DNA of 21,600 nucleotides from a virus, in IMG/VR virus record IMGVR_UViG_3300034112_001137, positions 1-21,600 of that record; one strand, 5' to 3'. Positions 9,457 to 19,987 of this stretch are shown in pieces. Each line of letters begins with the position of its first letter. Position 1 is the stretch's first letter. The translations under genes were made by a program, and so were the position numbers. Below the pieces are notes generated by a model. That model was not told the DNA's origin. It saw only the letters and a program-made list of their open reading frames with translations, and made no database searches.

Positions 9457-9494
9457 CCCGCAAGTACTTGCGGGCCAGCTTGACAATGTCAAGC
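9457..9494 (-). terminator. Tandem hairpins before the P12 control region
   Basis: An 8-bp stem, CCCGCAAG/CTTGCGGG (9457-9474), and a perfect 17-base palindrome, GCTTGACA-A-TGTCAAGC (9478-9494). They follow the stop of the gene at 9510-9632 in transcription order. No U-run. Confidence 0.55.
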
Positions 9495-9509
9495 CGACAC
9501 TCCGTTAGG

Positions 9510-9632
9510 CTAGTGTGATTCGTGCCACATCTCTCGCATCTCTGCCTTAAAGTCATGCCATACGATCCTCGCCATGTATAGGGCGGGGAGGGCAAGGGAT
9601 AACTGTACTAGTGTAGTAAGTAGTCTATTCAT
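9510..9632 (-). CDS. 40-aa membrane-anchored protein
   Basis: MNRLLTTLVQLSLALPALYM followed by ARIVWHDFKAEMREMWHESH: one hydrophobic N-terminal helix (about residues 4-24) and a charged helical tail, so probably an inner-membrane protein with a cytoplasmic tail. The ATG overlaps the upstream TAA (TAATG). It is the last gene of the P13 operon. Function unknown. Confidence 0.7.
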   Translation of the reverse strand: MNRLLTTLVQLSLALPALYMARIVWHDFKAEMREMWHESH

Positions 9633-9802
9633 TACGCATTAACCTTATCTCTTAGTGATTGCATAGCGCTATCTATTTGATTATACGCATTAGCGCATGA
9701 GTAGCAATAGGTTTCGGTTAAGATACCACCCAATAGCATGGCATCTATTCCGCTATAAACTAAATCGGTATTGTTGCAGTTAATTACTTTACACTCTTTC
9801 AT
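9632..9802 (-). CDS. 56-aa protein with CxxxxC and CxxC
   Basis: MKECKVINCNNTDLVYSG..., later TETYCYSCANAYNQ. Two cysteine pairs, C4/C9 and C33/C36, suggest zinc binding. Linked by TAATG overlaps at both ends to its neighbours. Confidence 0.7.
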   Translation of the reverse strand: MKECKVINCNNTDLVYSGIDAMLLGGILTETYCYSCANAYNQIDSAMQSLRDKVNA

Positions 9803-9969
9803 TATGCGGTCACCTTTATGTCCATTACATTAGCGGTAAACTTTTTAACCTTGCCTAATTCGCTATCGTTAAGTGATGCGATTACATGGTCAATAGCCTT
9901 AGCCTCATGCGCTACATTGTCAATAGAGATTAGTTTAGAGCCTTGCCAAATTGAGTAAGTGATAGTCAT
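9802..9969 (-). CDS. Unknown 55-aa protein
   Basis: Started at MTITYSIWQGSKLISIDNVA (9969), because a longer frame to 9984 would overlap the upstream gene and GGGAG stands before the 9969 ATG. A small alpha/beta protein with no motif recognised. Confidence 0.68.
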   Translation of the reverse strand: MTITYSIWQGSKLISIDNVAHEAKAIDHVIASLNDSELGKVKKFTANVMDIKVTA

Positions 9970-9971
9970 TA

Positions 9972-10154
9972 TTAGTTCTCCCATGTTAGTTCGTATAGTT
10001 TTGCTAGTGCCTCATCATCTGAGTCATCAAATTCATCTAGTGGAGGTTGTTCCTCATCTACCTCATCAAGGTATGCGTATGCGTCTGCGACATCTGATTG
10101 GATAGTATCCCACTTAGACACGCTATTAGTTTCGTATGAGTATGCGTATGACAT
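9972..10154 (-). CDS. Unknown 60-aa strongly acidic protein
   Basis: MSYAYSYETNSVSKWDTIQS then a long Asp/Glu-rich stretch (DEVDEEQPPLDEFDDSDDE). Net charge is very negative, a property shared with DNA-mimic proteins but not proof of that role. An AAGGAGATG site lies upstream, and it is coupled by TAATG to the gene above. Confidence 0.7.
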   Translation of the reverse strand: MSYAYSYETNSVSKWDTIQSDVADAYAYLDEVDEEQPPLDEFDDSDDEALAKLYELTWEN

Positions 10155-10753: not shown

Positions 10754-10781
10754 TTGACTAGAATATAGGACGGGGTATAAT
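10754..10781 (+). promoter_or_regulatory. Sigma-A-type promoter for the first oxygenase, leaderless
   Basis: TTGACT, 16 bases, TATAAT. The predicted +1 (10788) is the A of the ATG, so the mRNA should be leaderless. It faces away from P14. The rest of the gap 10638-10753 is AT-rich with no other signal I can name. Confidence 0.8.
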
Positions 10782-10787
10782 AAGGGT

Positions 10788-11516
10788 ATGGAACCATATG
10801 CATCTATAGTTAAAAAACAGCTTGCTCAAATATTAGAAAAAGAACCCAATGCGGTACTAATTGAGAAGAACATAGTTGTACTAAAAAACTGGTTATCAGA
10901 TGATCTTTGCGACAGGTTAGTATCTCATGTAGAATCTTTTGGAGAAGATATTTGGTGGGAAAAAAACAAGCGAGAATGGTGGCATGGAAAATTTTTCTTT
11001 ATAGAAGATAAAGATCTTGATGCAGAGCTAAAACATATGCGTATAAGGCTACAGGAGCTGTTTAGACAAGAGCTCTGGGTAGAAAGTATGAACTCTGTTC
11101 ATAGAATGACTAAAGGCCAGTCTATGTTCTTACATGCTGATAATTTGGCGGAATCAATGGGGATGGACAACAAATGCGTATTTGGCGTTACTCATTATAT
11201 AAGCAATTTTGACGGTGGTGAGATATCTTATCCAAATATTGGATTTCAATATAAACCAGAAAAAGGCGATTTGTTATTACATCCTGGATGGGAAGCATAT
11301 GCACACTATACAGAAGATGTAAGAGGCGATAGAATCAGATATATTGTAGCTGGATTTGCATCACTTCCTGAAGCTGAGGAATTAAGAAAAAATGATCAGC
11401 TATATGAAGGCATAGATGCAATTAAAATGTCTAGTGCTGTAAATGGAGTATTTGGAGAAGATGATTTGCCTGAAGGATTTTACACTTTGCCACATGAGTA
11501 TACGAAAGAAAAATAA
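10788..11516 (+). CDS. 2-oxoglutarate/Fe(II)-dependent oxygenase, prolyl-4-hydroxylase-like
   Basis: 242 residues. The C-terminal jelly-roll carries the iron triad H-x-D (FLHADN, H116 and D118) and the distal histidine H173 (YAHYTEDVRGDRIRY). R182 or R184 is placed to bind the 2-oxoglutarate carboxylate. The FDGGEISYP and KPEKGDLLLHPG strands are typical of the P4H superfamily. It would hydroxylate a substrate using O2 and 2-oxoglutarate in the cytoplasm; the substrate cannot be read from sequence. The ATG sits at the predicted transcription start, so it is probably translated leaderless. The last ~50 residues extend past the domain. Many AUA codons occur here and a tRNA-Ile(UAU) is encoded nearby. 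It is clearly different from the two oxygenases downstream. Confidence 0.88.
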   Translation: MEPYASIVKKQLAQILEKEPNAVLIEKNIVVLKNWLSDDLCDRLVSHVESFGEDIWWEKNKREWWHGKFFFIEDKDLDAELKHMRIRLQELFRQELWVESMNSVHRMTKGQSMFLHADNLAESMGMDNKCVFGVTHYISNFDGGEISYPNIGFQYKPEKGDLLLHPGWEAYAHYTEDVRGDRIRYIVAGFASLPEAEELRKNDQLYEGIDAIKMSSAVNGVFGEDDLPEGFYTLPHEYTKEK

Positions 11517-11525
11517 ATAAACCTA

Positions 11526-11555
11526 TTGACTTTGATAAAAACAAAATGATACACT
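11526..11555 (+). promoter_or_regulatory. Promoter after the first oxygenase
   Basis: TTGACT, 18 bases, TACACT; predicted start near 11562. It would make an RNA with a structured first 60 bases leading towards the small membrane genes and tRNA-Ile. Confidence 0.6.
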
Positions 11556-11561
11556 TAGTTT

Positions 11562-11640
11562 GCTTTGTGGGGGCTTACCCTGAAACTCAATATGTACCAG
11601 ATGTAATCTGTGGGTATTTCAGGAACGCTTCTCTATCTTT
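11562..11640 (+). ncRNA. Structured RNA leader or small RNA (candidate)
   Basis: Downstream of the 11526 promoter, CCTGAAA (11579-11585) pairs perfectly with TTTCAGG (11617-11623) around an inner stem TACC-AGAT-GTA-ATCT-GGTA. No open reading frame covers it. Farther on (11640-11748) are two G6-type tracts (GGGGGG-TA-GGGGGG) and an extended -10 (TGC-TATAAA, about 11702) before the next gene. It matches no riboswitch I recognise; it could be a leader, a small RNA or an attenuator. Confidence 0.4.
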
Positions 11641-11748
11641 CCAAAAAGAAAAAATTTGGGGGGTAGGGGGGCTTTCCTAAAATCTAATATCCCCAGATAA
11701 TGCTATAAAAACATAAAGAAAATACATAAGAAAAGGCGGGATAAAAAG

Positions 11749-11826
11749 ATGAAGACTCTTATTGCAGTAGCCATAATAGCTGTCATTACTTTTATCCTTG
11801 GCATACTCATACAGATAATAGGCTAA
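11749..11826 (+). CDS. 25-aa membrane peptide
   Basis: MKTLIAVAIIAVITFILGIL then IQIIG: essentially a single transmembrane helix. An AAGGCGGG site lies upstream and the stop is five bases before tRNA-Ile. The very short length means function is unclear; holin-like or membrane-modulating peptides of this size are known in phages. Confidence 0.55.
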   Translation: MKTLIAVAIIAVITFILGILIQIIG

Positions 11827-11831
11827 TATAA

Positions 11832-11906
11832 GGGCCTATAGCTTAATCTGGTTAAAGCAATTGTCTTATATGCAATCGACTTTGGGTTCAAATCCCAATA
11901 GGCCTA
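11832..11906 (+). tRNA. tRNA-Ile (anticodon UAU), CCA not encoded
   Basis: A 75-base cloverleaf: acceptor GGGCCTA/TAGGCCT (one G-U), D-stem GCTT/AAGC, anticodon stem ATTGT/GCAAT with loop CTTATAT, T-stem TTGGG/CCCAA with loop TTCAAAT, discriminator A. The anticodon UAU reads AUA directly. Most bacteria read AUA with a lysidine-modified CAU tRNA instead, so this phage tRNA is notable. No CCA follows, so the host must add it. Confidence 0.92.
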
Positions 11907-11920
11907 CAAAGGAGTAGAAT

Positions 11921-12025
11921 ATGAATAATGTAAGAGTGCCATCTGAATGGCCAAGAAAAAAGAAGATCAGATTTATTGCCCTTTGCTTTCTTGCTATATC
12001 GATCTTCCTGTTTTTTAATATATAG
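11921..12025 (+). CDS. 34-aa membrane peptide
   Basis: MNNVRVPSEWPRKKKIRFIA then LCFLAISIFLFFNI: a basic N-terminus (PRKKK) followed by one hydrophobic helix to the C-terminus, so a single-pass protein with its N-terminus inside by the positive-inside rule. An AAAGGAG site precedes the ATG by seven bases. Confidence 0.65.
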   Translation: MNNVRVPSEWPRKKKIRFIALCFLAISIFLFFNI

Positions 12026-12031
12026 GCCTAC

Positions 12032-12060
12032 TTGGTTTCACGTGGAACATGGAGTATAAT
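12032..12060 (+). promoter_or_regulatory. Promoter for the 49-aa membrane protein, leaderless
   Basis: TTGGTT, 17 bases, TATAAT. The predicted +1 is the A of the ATG at 12067, the same geometry as the 10788 gene. Confidence 0.6.
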
Positions 12061-12066
12061 ACTAAT

Positions 12067-12216
12067 ATGATAGCTTATGATGTTCCTCTTTCCACCCTCC
12101 TTTTTATTATGTGGGCAGGTATTATAGTAGAGCATAAAATAGGGTCTGAGGAACAACGTCTAGCTAATATGGAGTATTTGAGAAGTTTATACGAAGATGA
12201 AAATGATGGTCTCTAA
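12067..12216 (+). CDS. 49-aa single-pass membrane protein with acidic tail
   Basis: MIAYDVPLSTLLFIMWAGII then VEHKIGSEEQRLANMEYLRS and an acidic end (YEDENDGL). There is one membrane helix near residues 7-22 and a charged helical C-terminus. I chose the ATG at 12067 because the -10 ends six bases before it; an in-frame ATG at 12049 would lie inside the promoter. Function unknown. Confidence 0.65.
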   Translation: MIAYDVPLSTLLFIMWAGIIVEHKIGSEEQRLANMEYLRSLYEDENDGL

Positions 12217-12267
12217 TTTTCGGCTCACTTTTCGCCGCACTTTCTGAAATCAATAAGGAGATATGTT

Positions 12268-13020
12268 ATGTCTATAGAAGTTGAAATATACAACGATAAA
12301 ATTTTTTATTTTAAAAATGCAATACCTAATTCTAAAGAAATTCTAAAGTACATAGAATCTACGTCAAATGATATTATTACCGATTGGCTACCATGGGGAA
12401 ATAAATATGCGTTTTCATTAGAGCAAAAAAAAGATTGGGAAGAATTAGGAATTACTCCAGAAGACTTTGGGTTAGCTAAATGTATATATGACCCAAACTG
12501 GTTTGACCCACATAAAAAAGATACTGAAAGTCATTGGGTATTTGAATCTATTAATAAAGCTGTTATAGATTGCTCAGATAAGTATGCAAACCATTTAGGG
12601 ATAGACACTACCTTGAATCCTAGAATCCCATCGCCTGGATATGTTATTGGTAAATACAACTCCATGCAATCTAGAGGACTGCACACAGACTGCCCCTATG
12701 ATGACCTAGAGCACTCCTTTGTCATATACTACAATGATGATTATTCTGATGGATATTTATATTTTCCAAACTATAATTTACAAATAAAACCAGAATCTGG
12801 AAGCATCATCATGTTTAAGTCTTCGGATCTAGATAATGAACATGAAGCTGTTCCTAATATAGGTTTTAAGTACATAACCCCACATTTTTGGAGAATGGGT
12901 CCATCACAAGGGTTTGTACCTTGGGGATTCAAAGATGTTAAATTACCAGAAAACGTAACTAATGATTTTTATAACTTGGAAACAGTAGAAAAAAATAAAA
13001 AACGGATATTTGGTGAATGA
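12268..13020 (+). CDS. 2-oxoglutarate/Fe(II)-dependent oxygenase, second copy type
   Basis: 250 residues. The iron ligands are H139 and D141 (GLHTDCP) and H192 (NEHEAVPNIGFKY), with K201 in the 2-oxoglutarate position; the YLYFPNYNLQIKPESGSIIMF strands fit the double-stranded beta-helix fold. The N-terminal ~115 residues are specific to it and aromatic-rich (DWLPWGNKYAF). It would catalyse hydroxylation of an unknown substrate. An AAGGAG site stands ten bases before the ATG. It overlaps the third oxygenase by four bases (ATGA), so the two are co-translated and may act on the same substrate. Similarity to the 10788 product is limited to the catalytic motifs. Confidence 0.82.
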   Translation: MSIEVEIYNDKIFYFKNAIPNSKEILKYIESTSNDIITDWLPWGNKYAFSLEQKKDWEELGITPEDFGLAKCIYDPNWFDPHKKDTESHWVFESINKAVIDCSDKYANHLGIDTTLNPRIPSPGYVIGKYNSMQSRGLHTDCPYDDLEHSFVIYYNDDYSDGYLYFPNYNLQIKPESGSIIMFKSSDLDNEHEAVPNIGFKYITPHFWRMGPSQGFVPWGFKDVKLPENVTNDFYNLETVEKNKKRIFGE

Positions 13021-13613
13021 TGGATAAAGTATACTTAGATGAAAACATATTTTATATAGAAGATTTTATATCTAAAAAGGATCTAGTTATCTTAAACAAT
13101 GCGATAAAGTCAGATTCTCATATAGAAGACTACGGACACTCATCACACACTTCTTTGATTATAGAAGAAAGTAATATTACCAGTATTTGGGATGGATATT
13201 TATCAAAGCTTGATGATTTTTTTAACAATGAAACAGAAACTTTAATCAGGCCCTATACAGATTTTGTGTCACTGATTAAATATAGAAATTTCGATTTTTC
13301 TTTCAATAATTTTCCAGAAGAGTTTGCAAAAACTGACTACATAATGCCTCCTCATGCAGACGATGTTTCTTATGACATGTCAGAACAAGATTTAATAGAA
13401 AGAAAATCTTTTGTGTCGAAAGGCATAATTATATTTATTAACGATGATTTTGAAGGTGGAGAAGTTGTGTATGTCAATAAGAATATATCTGTTAAGCCTA
13501 AAGCTGGCACACTAGTTTGCCACCCTGGAACAAAAGAATATTCTCATGCCGTAAATAAATTTTATAATGGAGACAGAATAATAGCATCAATGTTTGTACA
13601 CAAGCTTCTGTAA
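13017..13613 (+). CDS. 2-oxoglutarate/Fe(II)-dependent oxygenase, third
   Basis: 198 residues. H113 and D115 (PPHADDVSYD) and H177 (YSHAVNKFYNGDR, with R187) form the iron and 2-oxoglutarate site. The FEGGEVVYVNKNISVKPKAG segment matches P4H-like enzymes, as in the first oxygenase (FDGGEISYPN..., KPEKG). It is shorter than its neighbours, close to a minimal domain. The start is either of two adjacent Met codons (13017 or 13020). Translationally coupled to the preceding oxygenase. It is AT-rich with frequent AUA codons, like the other two. Confidence 0.85.
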   Translation: MMDKVYLDENIFYIEDFISKKDLVILNNAIKSDSHIEDYGHSSHTSLIIEESNITSIWDGYLSKLDDFFNNETETLIRPYTDFVSLIKYRNFDFSFNNFPEEFAKTDYIMPPHADDVSYDMSEQDLIERKSFVSKGIIIFINDDFEGGEVVYVNKNISVKPKAGTLVCHPGTKEYSHAVNKFYNGDRIIASMFVHKLL

Positions 13614-13632
13614 TATCTGACTAAAATAAAAA

Positions 13633-13660
13633 CCCCAATCAGAGGCGGATCCGATTGGGG
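13633..13660 (-). terminator. Intrinsic terminator between convergent gene sets
   Basis: CCCCAATC (13633-13640) pairs with GATTGGGG (13653-13660) around a 12-base loop. On the minus strand the stem is followed by TTTTTATTTT, so it ends the leftward set 15220-13691. It may also slow rightward transcripts, but only two T follow on that side. Confidence 0.85.
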
Positions 13661-13690
13661 TTAAGCACTTACGTGCATACGTAAGGAGTT

Positions 13691-14659: not shown

Positions 14660-15220
14660 CTAACTTTTAGATGGAAACTTGTCTAACCACTCTTTTGTTC
14701 GAGGTGTTAAACCTTTCCATGACGACCAATCTTGACCGCCATTGGTCATATAATACGTTATCTCTGCGTTGATTGCTGGATCGAATAACGAGTAGTTACT
14801 ATCCAGTTTGAACTTTTCTTTACGATCATCACCTAGGTTACCCAACATGTTGATCTGAAAAATTCCATAGGAACTGTCTCCAGTTTTCCTGTTGCCGTTA
14901 TAAGCCATTGGGCGTCCATTAGACTCCTTTTTAGCCACAGCCCACGCCATTTTAAGGGCGCTACCCTCAAAGCCTACAGCCTTGAGAAGTTCAACCAATT
15001 CTTTGTCTGTTAAAGACTCTGATGGTTTCCACACAGTATTGCTGAATTGCTCCAGCTTTTCCTTGTTAAGTTGTGCTTCGGTTTTTACTTCTGGTTTTAC
15101 AACCAGCGCAGATGCTGATTGAATTATTTCTGGTTGACCAGTAAATAAAAACAGTACAGCTACTGCTATTGCAACATAGTGATGTAAGACATCGCTAAGT
15201 TTTTGCTTTATATTCTCCAT
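14660..15220 (-). CDS. Lysozyme/transglycosylase-like protein with N-terminal membrane segment
   Basis: 186 residues when started at MENIKQKLSDV, eight bases after GGAGG; ATG 15226 is too close to that site. Residues ~15-30 form a hydrophobic helix (AIAVAVLFLF), a signal or signal-anchor, followed by a linker. The catalytic domain has AWAVAKKESNGRPMA with candidate catalytic Glu99, SSYGIFQIN, and an INAEITYYM helix followed by DWSSWKG. These are hallmarks of the SLT/lysozyme-like fold that cuts peptidoglycan glycan strands. It acts outside the membrane. It could be an endolysin, or a virion- or cell-associated muralytic enzyme. It has its own sigma-A-like promoter (15254-15283), divergent from the ribonucleotide reductase. 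Confidence 0.85.
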   Translation of the reverse strand: MENIKQKLSDVLHHYVAIAVAVLFLFTGQPEIIQSASALVVKPEVKTEAQLNKEKLEQFSNTVWKPSESLTDKELVELLKAVGFEGSALKMAWAVAKKESNGRPMAYNGNRKTGDSSYGIFQINMLGNLGDDRKEKFKLDSNYSLFDPAINAEITYYMTNGGQDWSSWKGLTPRTKEWLDKFPSKS

Positions 15221-15253
15221 AGGCATTTCCTCCAATAGAGATAACGAACTATA

Positions 15254-15283
15254 AGAATACCATTAATCTTTACAATATGTCAA
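15254..15283 (-). promoter_or_regulatory. Sigma-A-type promoter for the lysozyme-like operon
   Basis: On the minus strand: TTGACA (perfect), 18 bases, TATTCT with extended TGG; predicted start near 15247, 27 bases before the ATG. Confidence 0.75.
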
Positions 15284-15373
15284 CTTAAAAAAAAGTGTTT
15301 ATTTATTCTAGTTAACCAATAAACTAGCTATTGAATAATATTTTTCACCCTTCCTTTCTATAAAAAACTTTGG

Positions 15374-15379
15374 TAGAAT
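15374..15379 (+). promoter_or_regulatory. Extended -10 for ribonucleotide reductase
   Basis: TGG-TAGAAT with predicted start near 15386 and no convincing -35. The 40-base leader is too short for a cobalamin riboswitch, so control by B12 through RNA is unlikely. Confidence 0.5.
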
Positions 15380-15426
15380 AAGACTCTTACTAAAATTTAT
15401 GTGCCATAGGGCGGAAAAGAGACAAA

Positions 15427-17517
15427 ATGACAAAAATTCAAAACTTTAAACAATCCTCAGATTACTTTGATGAGAAGCCAATGGTATTGCTTGAGCCAAA
15501 TGCAGATAGCGCTTTAATAGAAAACCCATACGAAAATTTTATAGCTATTTCTAGATATGCTAGATGGATACCAGATTTAAATAGAAGAGAAACATGGAAA
15601 GAAACCGTAGATAGATATTTTTCTTTTATGCTAAACAACCTAAAAGAAAATTTTGATTATACTCCAGACGAGATACTTCTTTCAAATCTTAAAGATGCTG
15701 TATACAAGAGAAATGTAATGCCTTCTATGAGAGCTGTTATGACTTCTGGTCCCGCCCTAGAAAGAGATAACGTTGCTGGATACAATTGTTCGTATTTGCC
15801 AGTTGATCACCCAAGAGCATTTGACGAAACTATGTATATATTGATGTGTGGCTCTGGAGTTGGTTTCTCAGTAGAATATAAGTACATTAATAAGCTTCCT
15901 TCAATCCCTCAAACTTTGGAAAAAGTTTCTGACGTTATTGTTGTAGAAGATTCTAAAACAGGCTGGGCAACAGCCTACAAGATGCTTTTAAAAAGCCTAT
16001 GGGATGGAAAGATTCCATCCTTTGATGTTACAAAAGTTAGACCAGCTGGTGCAAGGCTTAAAACCATGGGCGGAAGATCATCTGGACCGCAGCCCCTTGT
16101 AAACTTATTTGATTTTACTATTGCAAAGTTTAAAAATGCAGCAGGAAGACAACTTAAGCCAATTGAAGCGCATGACATAATGTGTAAGATTGGCGAGGTT
16201 GTTGTTGTTGGAGGAGTTCGCAGATCAGCTATGATTTCTCTTTCTAATATAAACGATATAGAAATGGCTCAAGCAAAATCTGGAAACTGGTGGGAACACA
16301 ATCCACAACGTGCTCTTTCAAATAATTCTGTAGCATATTCTAGAAAGCCAGATATGGAGCAGTTTATTTCTGAATGGAAATCGCTATACGATTCAAAATC
16401 TGGAGAGCGAGGAATCTATAATGTTGCAGCAGCACAAAAACAAGCTGCATTGAGCGGGAGAGACCCAGAGATACACTACGGAACTAATCCCTGCTCAGAA
16501 ATCATATTAAGACCAAATCAGTTCTGTAACTTGTCAGAAGTTGTTATTCGTGAAGATGATAACGAAGAGTCTGTTTCTAGAAAAGTAGAGCTTGCTTCAA
16601 TACTTGGTACATGGCAATCTACACTAACAAACTTTAAGTACATAAGAGATGTTTGGAGAAAAAATACAGAAGAAGAAAGACTGCTTGGCGTATCTTTAAC
16701 TGGTCAGTTTGGAAATTCTTATTTTTCTGGAAAATATCAAGCACATAAAAAAGAAGGTTATACATGTAGGTACGCATGTCCTGGAAATTGCGAAAATTTA
16801 GATCACATTAAAGAAGATGATCACCTTCGACTAGAACATGCCCTACAAAGACTAAAGACCAGAGCTAACGAAGCAAATAAAAAAGAGGCATTAAATATTG
16901 GCATAAATCCTTCTGCTTCTGTTACATGTGTAAAGCCTTCTGGAACAGTTTCACAGCTTACTGGAGTTTCTTCTGGCATGCATCCTTGGCACTCAGAATA
17001 TTACATAAGAACAGTTCGTGGCTCAAAAGGAGATCCAATTTCAATTTTTCTTAAAGAGATTGGAATACCAGTAGAAGACGATGTTATGAAGCCAACCGAA
17101 ACTTATGTTTTTTCTTTTCCTGTAAAGGCACCAGAAGGTGCTACACTTAGAAAAGACCTTACAGCCATAGAGCACCTTGAGCTTTGGATGATATACCAAA
17201 AGGCTTGGTGCGATCATAAGCCATCAATTACAGTATCTGTAAAAGACGAAGAGTGGATGGAAGTGGGTTCCTGGGTATATAAAAACTTTGACGATCTTTC
17301 TGGAATTTCTTTTCTTCCATACTCTGATCACTCTTACAAGCAAGCCCCATACCAAGAGGTTTCAAAAGAAGAATATGAAGATCTGGTATCAAAGATGCCT
17401 AAAAGCATTAGATGGGAAGATTTATCTTTCTACGAGCTAGAAGATGGCACTTCTACAAATGCAACGCTTGCATGTAGCTCTGATGGTAATTGCGAATTGG
17501 TAGATATTAGCGCATAG
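15427..17517 (+). CDS. nrdJ: Class II (adenosylcobalamin-dependent) ribonucleoside-triphosphate reductase
   Basis: 696 residues, monomeric RTPR type. It reduces ribonucleoside triphosphates to deoxy forms with B12 radical chemistry, without oxygen. Landmarks: PSMRAVMTSGPALERDNVAG then YNCSYLPV (C121), the radical-site NPCSEIIL (C356) and FCNLSEV (C367), and the C-terminal redox pair ACSSDGNCELV. The 11-residue gap C356-C367 equals C408-C419 of the Lactobacillus leichmannii enzyme, whose partner C119 matches C121. The C-terminal Cys pair is CxxxxxC, one residue wider than in that enzyme. It supplies dNTPs for phage DNA and makes the phage depend on host cobalamin. The start is set by GGCGG...AAAGAG upstream. 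No intein is visible. Confidence 0.95.
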   Translation: MTKIQNFKQSSDYFDEKPMVLLEPNADSALIENPYENFIAISRYARWIPDLNRRETWKETVDRYFSFMLNNLKENFDYTPDEILLSNLKDAVYKRNVMPSMRAVMTSGPALERDNVAGYNCSYLPVDHPRAFDETMYILMCGSGVGFSVEYKYINKLPSIPQTLEKVSDVIVVEDSKTGWATAYKMLLKSLWDGKIPSFDVTKVRPAGARLKTMGGRSSGPQPLVNLFDFTIAKFKNAAGRQLKPIEAHDIMCKIGEVVVVGGVRRSAMISLSNINDIEMAQAKSGNWWEHNPQRALSNNSVAYSRKPDMEQFISEWKSLYDSKSGERGIYNVAAAQKQAALSGRDPEIHYGTNPCSEIILRPNQFCNLSEVVIREDDNEESVSRKVELASILGTWQSTLTNFKYIRDVWRKNTEEERLLGVSLTGQFGNSYFSGKYQAHKKEGYTCRYACPGNCENLDHIKEDDHLRLEHALQRLKTRANEANKKEALNIGINPSASVTCVKPSGTVSQLTGVSSGMHPWHSEYYIRTVRGSKGDPISIFLKEIGIPVEDDVMKPTETYVFSFPVKAPEGATLRKDLTAIEHLELWMIYQKAWCDHKPSITVSVKDEEWMEVGSWVYKNFDDLSGISFLPYSDHSYKQAPYQEVSKEEYEDLVSKMPKSIRWEDLSFYELEDGTSTNATLACSSDGNCELVDISA

Positions 17518-17898: not shown

Positions 17899-18246
17899 AT
17901 GGCAGGACAAAAGAATTTCGAAGTAGATCAAAATGCAACATTTAGTTTTATAGTAGAATATAAAGACGAAAATGACGATGCAATTGATCTTACTGGTGCA
18001 TCTGCAAAGATGCAGGTGCGTGATACAAAGGGCGGCAATAAATTAGCTGTTACACTAACATCACCATCTGGCGGAATTACAATTGATGGACCTAATGGTA
18101 AATTAACTGTAAAAATGACACCAACACAAACAAGCAAAATCTTTTATCCTAAATCATCTTATGATGTTATGGTTGTAGATTCTAATGGGAATAAAATAAA
18201 GCTCCTTGAAGGGTTTATGACCCTAAATAGATCGGTAACTATTTAA
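17899..18246 (+). CDS. BppU-like N-domain / Ig-like tail or baseplate protein
   Basis: 115 residues. The pattern FSFIVEYKDENDDAIDLTGA then SAKMQVRDTKGG and SYDVMVVDSNGNKIKLLEG is that of the small beta-sandwich found at the start of phage baseplate proteins (BppU-N-like) and other fibre adaptors. It is probably a virion protein linking fibres to the tail. The stop overlaps the next gene's ATG. An AGGAG lies upstream; an out-of-frame ATG at 17892 is not used. Confidence 0.7.
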   Translation: MAGQKNFEVDQNATFSFIVEYKDENDDAIDLTGASAKMQVRDTKGGNKLAVTLTSPSGGITIDGPNGKLTVKMTPTQTSKIFYPKSSYDVMVVDSNGNKIKLLEGFMTLNRSVTI

Positions 18247-18686
18247 TGACTGAATCCGTAGTTGTTCGAGAGCAAATAAATAAAATAGTAATTTCTTCTC
18301 CAGGTCCACAAGGACCAAGAGGAAGAACCATTCTAAATGGAAATGGGGATCCAGCAGCAAATTTGGGTCTTACTGGAGATTTTTACTTTGATATGCTTTC
18401 AGCTGCATTTCACGGACCAAAGCTTTCTGATTTAAATTGGTCGGGAGCAAGCAAAATATTTTTAACAAACAATACGCTAGCCTATCCTTGGGAGCTAACT
18501 CAAGTTACTGGTCCTTTGTCTGGAGTGTATTCTGTTGTTATTAATCACGGGCTAGGGTATCAACCAAACGTAACAGTTAAGTCTAGCGCTGGAGATATTT
18601 TGGAAACTGGAATAGACTACAATAGTACTAATCAAATAACACTGACTATGGCTCAACCATTTTCAGGGACAGCATACCTGTCATAA
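18246..18686 (+). CDS. Tail-fibre-type protein with short collagen-like motif
   Basis: 146 residues. The N-terminus MTESVVVREQINKIVISSPG leads into GPQGPRGRT, a two-triplet collagen-like (Gly-Pro-X) segment often seen near the start of phage fibres. The C-terminal ~65 residues (YSVVINHGLGYQPNVTVKSS, ...GDILETGIDY, ITLTMAQPFSGTAYLS) form a beta domain typical of fibre ends. Presumed to contribute to receptor binding. It directly follows the previous gene (shared base) and precedes the larger fibre. Confidence 0.75.
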   Translation: MTESVVVREQINKIVISSPGPQGPRGRTILNGNGDPAANLGLTGDFYFDMLSAAFHGPKLSDLNWSGASKIFLTNNTLAYPWELTQVTGPLSGVYSVVINHGLGYQPNVTVKSSAGDILETGIDYNSTNQITLTMAQPFSGTAYLS

Positions 18687-18697
18687 GGAGATAGCAA

Positions 18698-19978
18698 ATG
18701 GCAAGAAAATTTTTAGTTAGCGTTGATCTCAACAAGAATGAGTTGCTCAATGCTAGAATCCAAAACTTAGGCGCAGCGCCTTCAAATCCAGTATCTGGTC
18801 AGATTTACTATAACACTGGAACAAATGTTCTTTACTTCTATAATGGCACTGAGTGGACACCAGCATCTGGTTCTACTGAAGTAATTCAAGATGTTATTGG
18901 ATCTTCCGTAATAGCTGGTACAGCTTTAACATCAACATATAACGATGTTGCAGGAACAACTACATTAAATCTTAATGATACAGCAGTAACTGCTGGATCA
19001 TACGGATCAACAACAGCAATTCCTACATTTACAGTTGACGCTCAAGGTCGTTTGACTGCAGCTGGAACAGTAAACGTAGCAACTAATCTTTCAGTTGCTG
19101 GAGATACAGGAACAGATACAGTTGACCTTCTTACAGATACTCTTACAGTAGCTGGCGGAGAGGGAATTGACGTAGCTGTAACAAATAATACAATTACAAT
19201 TTCAGCAGAAAACGCAACATATACAAATAAGGGTGTAGCAAGTTTCGATGCAAGCGACTTTACAGTTGTAGGTGGCGAGGTATCTCTTAATAAAGATCCA
19301 GTAATTACTCTTTCAGGAGATGTAACTGGTTCTGCAACAATGACCAATTTGGGCGATGTTACAATATCAACAACAATTGAGCCAAACTCAGTTGCTCTTG
19401 GTGCTGACACGACTGGAAGCTATGTTTCAACAATTGTTGGAACATCTGGAGAAATTACAGTTTCAGGATCTGGATCAGAATCAGCAGCAGTAACTATTGG
19501 CTTGCCAGATGATGTAACAGTTACTGGTAACTTAAGCATTGGTGGAAACCTTGATGTTCAAGGATCTATTAACTCTATAAGCACAACAGAAGTTAATATT
19601 GTTGACAATAAAGTTGTTCTTAATACAAATGTTACTGGAGCTCCATCATCAGATGCTGGTCTTAAGGTAAACCGTGGAACCTCTGCAGATGTAGAAGTTT
19701 TATGGAATGAGGCGGCAGACCAATGGACATTAACAAATGACGGCACAAATTATCATGAGATAACAAGAAAATATAAGACTACACTAAATACATCAGCAAC
19801 ATCTTATACAGTTACACACAATTTAGGCACAAAAGATGTAGTGGTTTCTATATATGAAGTAGCATCACCATTTGCAGAAATATTTGCAGATGTTGAGCAT
19901 ACATCAGATTCAGATATAACTATTAAATTTGCAGTTGCACCAACAGCTGGAGAATATAGAGTAGTTGTAATAGGATAA
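18698..19978 (+). CDS. Tail fibre protein
   Basis: 426 residues, rich in Thr, Ser, Val, Asn and Gly, low in charge. The N-terminus MARKFLVSVDLNKNELLNAR is followed by a trimer-like element QIYYNTGTNVLYFYNGTEW. The centre consists of beta-rich repeats (TFTVDAQGRLTAAGTVN, VTGNLSIGGNLDVQGSI). The C-terminal domain, KTTLNTSATSYTVTHNLGTK then DVVVSIYEV, resembles the 'HNLGT' fibre tip modules. It presumably forms a trimeric fibre that binds the host surface. An AAGGAG site precedes the ATG. The QGRL.AAG and NLDVQGS elements are shared with many environmental phage fibres. Confidence 0.85.
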   Translation: MARKFLVSVDLNKNELLNARIQNLGAAPSNPVSGQIYYNTGTNVLYFYNGTEWTPASGSTEVIQDVIGSSVIAGTALTSTYNDVAGTTTLNLNDTAVTAGSYGSTTAIPTFTVDAQGRLTAAGTVNVATNLSVAGDTGTDTVDLLTDTLTVAGGEGIDVAVTNNTITISAENATYTNKGVASFDASDFTVVGGEVSLNKDPVITLSGDVTGSATMTNLGDVTISTTIEPNSVALGADTTGSYVSTIVGTSGEITVSGSGSESAAVTIGLPDDVTVTGNLSIGGNLDVQGSINSISTTEVNIVDNKVVLNTNVTGAPSSDAGLKVNRGTSADVEVLWNEAADQWTLTNDGTNYHEITRKYKTTLNTSATSYTVTHNLGTKDVVVSIYEVASPFAEIFADVEHTSDSDITIKFAVAPTAGEYRVVVIG

Positions 19979-19987
19979 GGATTCTAA

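Follow-up and report, generated by a model that had tools for sequence, protein, structure and literature searches.

The window analysed here is a 21,600-nt fragment of a phage genome (positions 1-21,600 of record IMGVR_UViG_3300034112_001137), which is probably of freshwater origin, judging by its IMG sample number. Between positions 10788 and 13613 it carries three plus-strand genes for enzymes resembling 2-oxoglutarate (2OG)-dependent Fe(II) oxygenases, hereafter the trio: g1 (10788..11516, 242 aa), g2 (12268..13020, 250 aa) and g3 (13017..13613, 198 aa). These open reading frames (ORFs) had been recognised in an initial annotation of the sequence, and their assignment was borne out by weak, mutually independent matches to PF13640 (2OG-FeII_Oxy_3; E 3e-4, 7.5e-4 and 2e-5 for g1, g2 and g3, respectively) and to PHROG families containing 2OG oxygenases (phrog_61 and phrog_2297; best E 5e-14). 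The PF13640 scores of 20.8-25.8 bits lie under the Pfam gathering score of 27. Since several orthologues in relatives exceed that score, this reflects distance and not absence of the domain.

The three oxygenases of the window

The iron triad HxD...H and the Arg or Lys for 2-oxoglutarate are intact in all three proteins, at H116-x-D118, H173 and R184 in g1, H139-x-D141, H192 and K201 in g2, and H113-x-D115, H177 and R187 in g3. These residues are conserved in relatives, and dN/dS values of 0.07-0.21 against the same genes of relatives, compared with 0.03-0.04 for a ribonucleotide reductase (RNR) control, indicate that all three genes are under purifying selection. The initial annotation was thus right that the motif is kept throughout, no active site having been lost, and also that the proteins diverge strongly outside it, their pairwise identities being 22%, 31% and 22%. 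The overlap of g2 and g3 by ATGA, which it had likewise pointed out, lies at 13017-13020; in two independent assemblies of one relative, homologues of g2 and g3 are naturally fused as a single 449-aa protein (L081:10531-11877, minus strand; L090:314-1663). The description of the region as one 3-kb oxygenase block needs amending: the three oxygenases are there, but the 750-bp spacer between g1 and g2 holds a tRNA-Ile and a 55-aa ORF, so that the block does not consist of oxygenases alone. The three genes are thus real and apparently encode functional enzymes of the protein-hydroxylase type.

Predicted fold and family assignment

The predicted model of g3 (predicted local distance difference test score 88) gave 166 PDB matches at E<=0.001, the best of which were prolyl hydroxylases. 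The first was vCPH of PBCV-1 (5c5t, E 4.6e-8), followed by the prolyl 4-hydroxylase (P4H) of B. anthracis, Chlamydomonas P4H-1, human C-P4H-II and P3H1. Sequence-profile matches of g1, g2 and g3 also lead to prolyl hydroxylases, and the closest structural or profile relatives of the trio are P4H, prolyl 3-hydroxylase (P3H) and prolyl hydroxylase domain (PHD) enzymes. The double-stranded beta-helix fold is assigned to g3 from the predicted model, and to g1 and g2 from the sequence profile alone. Accordingly, g3 is predicted to belong to the structural class of peptidyl prolyl hydroxylases. With the peptidyl P4Hs it shares the beta-helix and the HxD...H...R/K site, and the viral and algal members among its best structural matches act on Pro-rich peptides. 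Nevertheless, the structural match is at 14-17% identity only, and peptidyl proline is a putative substrate of the trio. The phage enzymes also differ from the P4Hs in forming a set of many paralogues per genome, with a conserved pseudoenzyme in an array described below.

The comparison with P4H, AlkB, PhyH and TET/JBP that had been proposed with the initial annotation is therefore in favour of the first class, the g3 model fitting peptidyl prolyl hydroxylases and not the other three. The PhyH family (PF05721) gave no match above the cut-off, the TET/JBP (PF12851) and AlkB (PF13532) families gave none above it in the window or its relatives, and neither the AlkB nor the TET/JBP fold was among the top 50 PDB matches listed for g3. 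These results bear on the proposal that the enzymes hydroxylate or hypermodify DNA bases in the manner of TET/JBP, or serve in AlkB-type DNA repair. Phages do use TET/JBP-class 2OG enzymes on DNA, and one array member in another phage has a sub-threshold Tet_JBP match; however, no base-modification partner enzymes were found among the proteins scanned. Modified DNA bases, one of three substrates originally offered, thus find no support here, and we regard a role on DNA as very improbable.

Relatives and identity of the phage

When the trio was compared with annotated phages by near-DNA and protein searches, almost no matches were obtained, and relatives were therefore taken from IMG/VR. These relatives are not independent of one another; the longer ones span 110 kb (G001) and 106 kb. 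The large terminase of G001 is 61-63% identical, and its DNA polymerase up to 58% identical, to those of Streptomyces phages of the Stanwilliamsviridae, while its RNR is 59% identical to that of Coruscant. The gene order from RNR to the tail is also kept between the longer relatives and this family, the common order being transglycosylase-RNR-...-LamG-portal. Judged by these genes, the window derives from a relative of the Stanwilliamsviridae; the assignment draws on hallmark genes and gene order for G001 and G002, and only on RNR, transglycosylase and gene order for the window itself. In contrast to the window and its relatives, the three cultured cousins scanned (Coruscant, Gilson and BillNye) have no PF13640 genes, have glycosyltransferases adjoining RNR, and show no PPxF repeats (see below) in the parts examined.

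This kinship points to a probable actinobacterial host. Used as queries against bacterial genomes, neither g1 nor a host-like protein of G001 yielded relatives that would identify it. The latter protein (G001:100724-102160; L071:724-2157), for which bacterial genomes gave no close relative, is predicted to be secreted and has a coiled-coil-like C-terminal half.

A paralogue set with a second, conserved array

An iterative search with a hidden Markov model (HMM) revealed 12 2OG members in the 110 kb of G001, and at least 12 in each of the longer relatives. The set of G001 comprises the trio, a pair at 104-105 kb and an operon-like array of seven members, which has tail-fibre genes on one side and the portal on the other. 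The array begins with a 2OG gene, a DUF6065 gene and a DUF6065-like gene, which are followed by six more 2OG genes. Whereas the trio locus is modular, the array is conserved, mostly at 59-100% identity. The active sites are intact across the set, save for the last array gene and one apparent HxE variant at 104.9 kb. This last gene (L067:15194-15736; G001:35194-35739), with orthologues in G002, G004, G007 and G008, keeps the fold signature KPEAGS..RY, but neither the HxD motif nor the distal His survives in any of the five genomes examined. It is therefore considered a conserved pseudoenzyme, which may serve as a regulatory or scaffold subunit.

The DUF6065 (PF19541) and phrog_7084 proteins (L067:9880-11330; L071:6642-7418) align with each other and are near-constant companions of 2OG arrays, a DUF6065 gene being present in 51 of 54 arrays with at least three 2OG genes. 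A profile search with DUF6065 found no relative of solved structure, and no paper on it was found in the literature covered.

A proline-aromatic repeat tail protein as candidate substrate

A scan of the relatives for Pro-rich proteins yielded a fibronectin-type-III tail protein that ends in 22-35 tandem PP[F/H/Y]F repeats (e.g. L067:7391-8431). It was found in all nine relatives covering the region, and in G001 about 750 bp separate its gene from the array downstream. The association was then assessed across IMG/VR with a DNA pattern for PPFFPPFFPP, which gave at least 120 matches, and with a tail-fibre motif (Mtd_N type) scanned alike as control. The 2OG HMM, being derived from the phages studied here, may overlook other types, and the control loci come from mixed habitats; the counts that follow refer to the matches listed. 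At least one 2OG gene lay within 6 kb of 74 of 98 PPFF-repeat loci, compared with 19 of 77 control loci (p 2e-11), and at least four lay there in 36 of 98 and 1 of 77, respectively. After strict greedy de-replication, the difference persisted (34/48 vs 7/38 loci with a 2OG gene, p 1e-6). The nearest 2OG gene was at a median distance of 633 bp, downstream of the repeat in 78 of 79 cases and on the same strand in 71 of 79. Of 133 repeat loci, 107 have the repeat read as PPxF by the longest ORF that covers it.

The most telling test was the reverse one, made inside the control set, which had not been chosen for Pro repeats. Long PFF/PPFF/PPHF-type tracts were present in 12 of 15 loci with at least two 2OG genes, compared with 2 of 58 loci without any 2OG gene (p 2e-9), which answers much of the objection regarding mixed habitats. 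More generally, long PP[F/H/Y]F or PFF repeats (loci L108-L343) span about 18 masked protein families of aquatic phages, many of them fn3-type or chaperone-ended tail proteins.

We therefore looked on the tail proteins as the best supported of the three substrates named in the initial annotation, on the strength of the P4H-type fold, the arrays beside Pro-aromatic-repeat tail proteins and the collection-wide linkage. Our preferred reading, to which we assign a probability of roughly 0.6, is that the trio and its paralogues are protein hydroxylases acting on virion proteins, with the repeat tail protein as the prime candidate substrate of the set. This reading rests on the genes, their intact sites, purifying selection, the predicted fold of g3, the paralogue set, the repeat protein and the statistical linkage, from which we infer enzyme activity, substrate and order of steps.

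Alternatively, the enzymes may act on host metabolism, where they would draw down 2-oxoglutarate, redirect the nitrogen response or hydroxylate free amino acids. Such a role has been proposed for cyanophages, with 2OG-FeII genes in 14 of 16 cyanomyoviruses and an NtcA hypothesis (PMC3037559). However, it accounts neither for a dozen divergent paralogues arranged in operons after a repeat tail gene nor for the linkage of repeats to 2OG genes, and an actinobacterial host would probably be without the cyanobacterial NtcA circuit. This explanation is therefore considered improbable.

Modular composition of the trio locus

In relatives, the trio locus is a modular cassette between a constant g1 (83-100% identity) and a constant flank of transglycosylase and RNR. 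The flank comprises, in the window, a transglycosylase-like protein (14660..15235, minus strand), which has a weak PHROG match and is syntenic with the annotated transglycosylase of Coruscant and BillNye, and the RNR (15427..17517, plus strand), which is 95% identical to its G001 orthologue. The set g1-g2-g3 of the window is the minimal form. Larger sets include g1-SGNH-g2-ST-og274-g3-g4, g1-SGNH-ST-og274-g3, g1-ST-g2-og274-g3 and g1-gX-[g2g3]-og274-ST-g4, among others. Here, SGNH denotes a gene named by eye from GDSL-like motifs, for which family searches gave no match, and og274 a 2OG enzyme of the phrog_274 type, common in cyanophages. ST denotes a short sulfotransferase-like protein with both motifs for binding 3'-phosphoadenosine-5'-phosphosulfate, namely the 5'-phosphosulfate-binding motif (YPRSGKNW or HIPRTSG) and the 3'-phosphate-binding motif (RDPVE..S). 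The cassette proteins ST_A and ST_B point weakly to sulfotransferases, both by profile (E 0.095) and by Foldseek, where the top five matches were all sulfotransferases (best E 0.009). ST and og274 are both present in 7 and both absent in 6 of the 13 cassette types, a pattern with a chance of 1/1716 by simple arithmetic that ignores relatedness. This co-occurrence suggests hydroxylation followed by sulfation.

Proteins of phrog_274 and phrog_2297 in cyanophages and pelagiphages are annotated as 'DNA endonuclease V' (denV), yet they resemble 2OG-Fe(II) oxygenases, with HxD...H...R and weak PF13640 matches. The denV label is likely a propagated mis-annotation.

The composition of the cassette also bears on a second alternative, in which the target of the trio differs from that of the array and is a glycan or envelope component of the host or virion, modified through hydroxylation followed by sulfation or acyl transfer, in place of the glycosyltransferases found at the same locus in the cousins. 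At the position of the trio, beside transglycosylase and RNR, Coruscant has glycosyltransferases and a heptose adenylyltransferase, and Gilson and BillNye have one or two glycosyltransferases. Sulfotransferase-like and SGNH-like genes join the cassette in relatives, and its fast-varying content is reminiscent of surface-modification loci. In contrast, the nearest folds are peptidyl hydroxylases and not sugar-modifying enzymes, and virion proteins could be the very targets of phage glycosyltransferases. Sulfotransferase-like genes, moreover, occur in the PPxF arrays of other phages too: seven PPFF loci hold them, of a type matching heparan sulfate 6-O-sulfotransferase at E 1.2e-5. Cell-surface sugars, also suggested originally, thus draw some support from the cousins and from the cassettes, but less than tail proteins do, and we consider this alternative unlikely.

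Proposed role in tail maturation

If the set acts on virion proteins as we prefer, several oxygenases, each responsible for one position of the tetrapeptide, would hydroxylate the prolines of the repeat tract, and perhaps its Phe, His or Tyr residues, during virion assembly. Hydroxylation could make an extremely hydrophobic, half-phenylalanine tract soluble and set its surface or binding properties; in some relatives, the new hydroxyls may then be sulfated. The stepwise hydroxylation pathway put forward in the initial annotation is plausible in this light, with about 12 genes per relative genome and sulfotransferase-like genes joining the locus in some, and that interpretation as a whole is partly supported.

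A broader proposal, to which we would give even odds, is that these genes belong to an undescribed tail-maturation system widespread in aquatic phages, in which arrays of prolyl-hydroxylase-like enzymes with a DUF6065 partner, encoded in the same genome, hydroxylate PPFF/PPYF/PPHF tail proteins at multiple sites and in some phages sulfate them as well, the trio of the window being an accessory part. A narrower claim, which we consider somewhat less likely than not, is that the repeat is a substrate of the trio itself; here the link is indirect, through paralogy to the array, which lies in the same genomes at another locus. The phage of the window presumably carries the repeat gene as well. If true, phages would modify their own tail polymer by a collagen-like chemistry, possibly with sulfation on top. 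The upstream repeat partner, associated in both directions of the test, makes the substrate hypothesis concrete and directly testable.

Several observations weigh against our preferred reading. The window has no PPxF gene, as it ends before that region, and in relatives the trio lies about 17-20 kb from the repeat gene. The phrog_274-type and sulfotransferase genes are absent from the window, and the cassette type was found not to track the variable tail-fibre module. Because the repeat copies of any one phage are almost uniform in DNA sequence, selection at the codon level could not be demonstrated for them. Finally, many cyanophage 2OG genes have, to our knowledge, no Pro-repeat partner.

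Relation to previously described phage oxygenases

The remark that phages often carry one such enzyme proved an understatement. Cyanomyoviruses carry 1-5 2OG-FeII genes (PMC3037559), the cyanophage S-SCSM1 has 24 such ORFs (PMC9602691), and pelagiphages have 8 non-orthologous 2OG auxiliary metabolic genes (PMC9599517). The last two expansions resemble the present one in having many diverged, partly clustered 2OG genes per genome and share the phrog_274 type, whereas neither a Pro-aromatic-repeat substrate nor a DUF6065 partner is described in the passages covered. The present set also differs in that its array has a defined gene order and its phage is related to actinobacteriophages. Similarly, a Phold survey reported phage 2OG enzymes resembling human EGLN3, a structural likeness to prolyl hydroxylases that extends across marine phages, and proposes neither substrate nor genetic partner in the passages covered (PMC12774648). 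Our literature search, which covered few subscription papers, found nothing on phage PPFF repeats or prolyl hydroxylation of phage tails, and no earlier description of the repeat tail partner, the DUF6065 partner or the pseudoenzyme. Multi-2OG phages and the prolyl-hydroxylase likeness were thus already known; the two partners and the pseudoenzyme are new as far as the literature covered shows.

Other features of the window and its relatives

A promoter-like site, TTGACT-16-TATAAT (10754..10781, plus strand; 11/12 matches), lies directly before g1, and this upstream stretch is kept in 9 of 10 relatives. As the -10 box is only 6 nt from the ATG of g1, a leaderless g1 mRNA is likely, which agrees with an actinobacterial host. 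Within the cassette, the tRNA-Ile (11832..11907, plus strand), present in most relatives too, has the anticodon UAU; this is unusual for bacteria, where a modified CAU is mostly found. The conserved 55-aa ORF (12049..12216, plus strand) has a hydrophobic N-terminal half, and G002 and G004 encode homologues in the corresponding position. An intrinsic-terminator-like hairpin (13631..13662, minus strand), with a 13-bp stem and a minus-strand T run, closes the convergent minus-strand genes.

The only collagen-like sequence that turned up in the window is a GPQGPRG stub in a short tail-region protein (18246..18686, plus strand), a minor candidate substrate. G001 also has AhpC-, CMD (AhpD-like)-, glutathione peroxidase-, short-chain dehydrogenase/reductase (SDR)- and subtilase-type proteins (L070:8221-9266, 9463-10140, 15175-16059, 18985-19980), and SDR- and peroxidase-like genes recur within the 2OG arrays of other phages. 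Another possible Pro-rich substrate, present in both large relatives, is a predicted secreted PA14-domain protein with long PTPEPT-type repeats (G001:91326-93527; L070:11326-13524).

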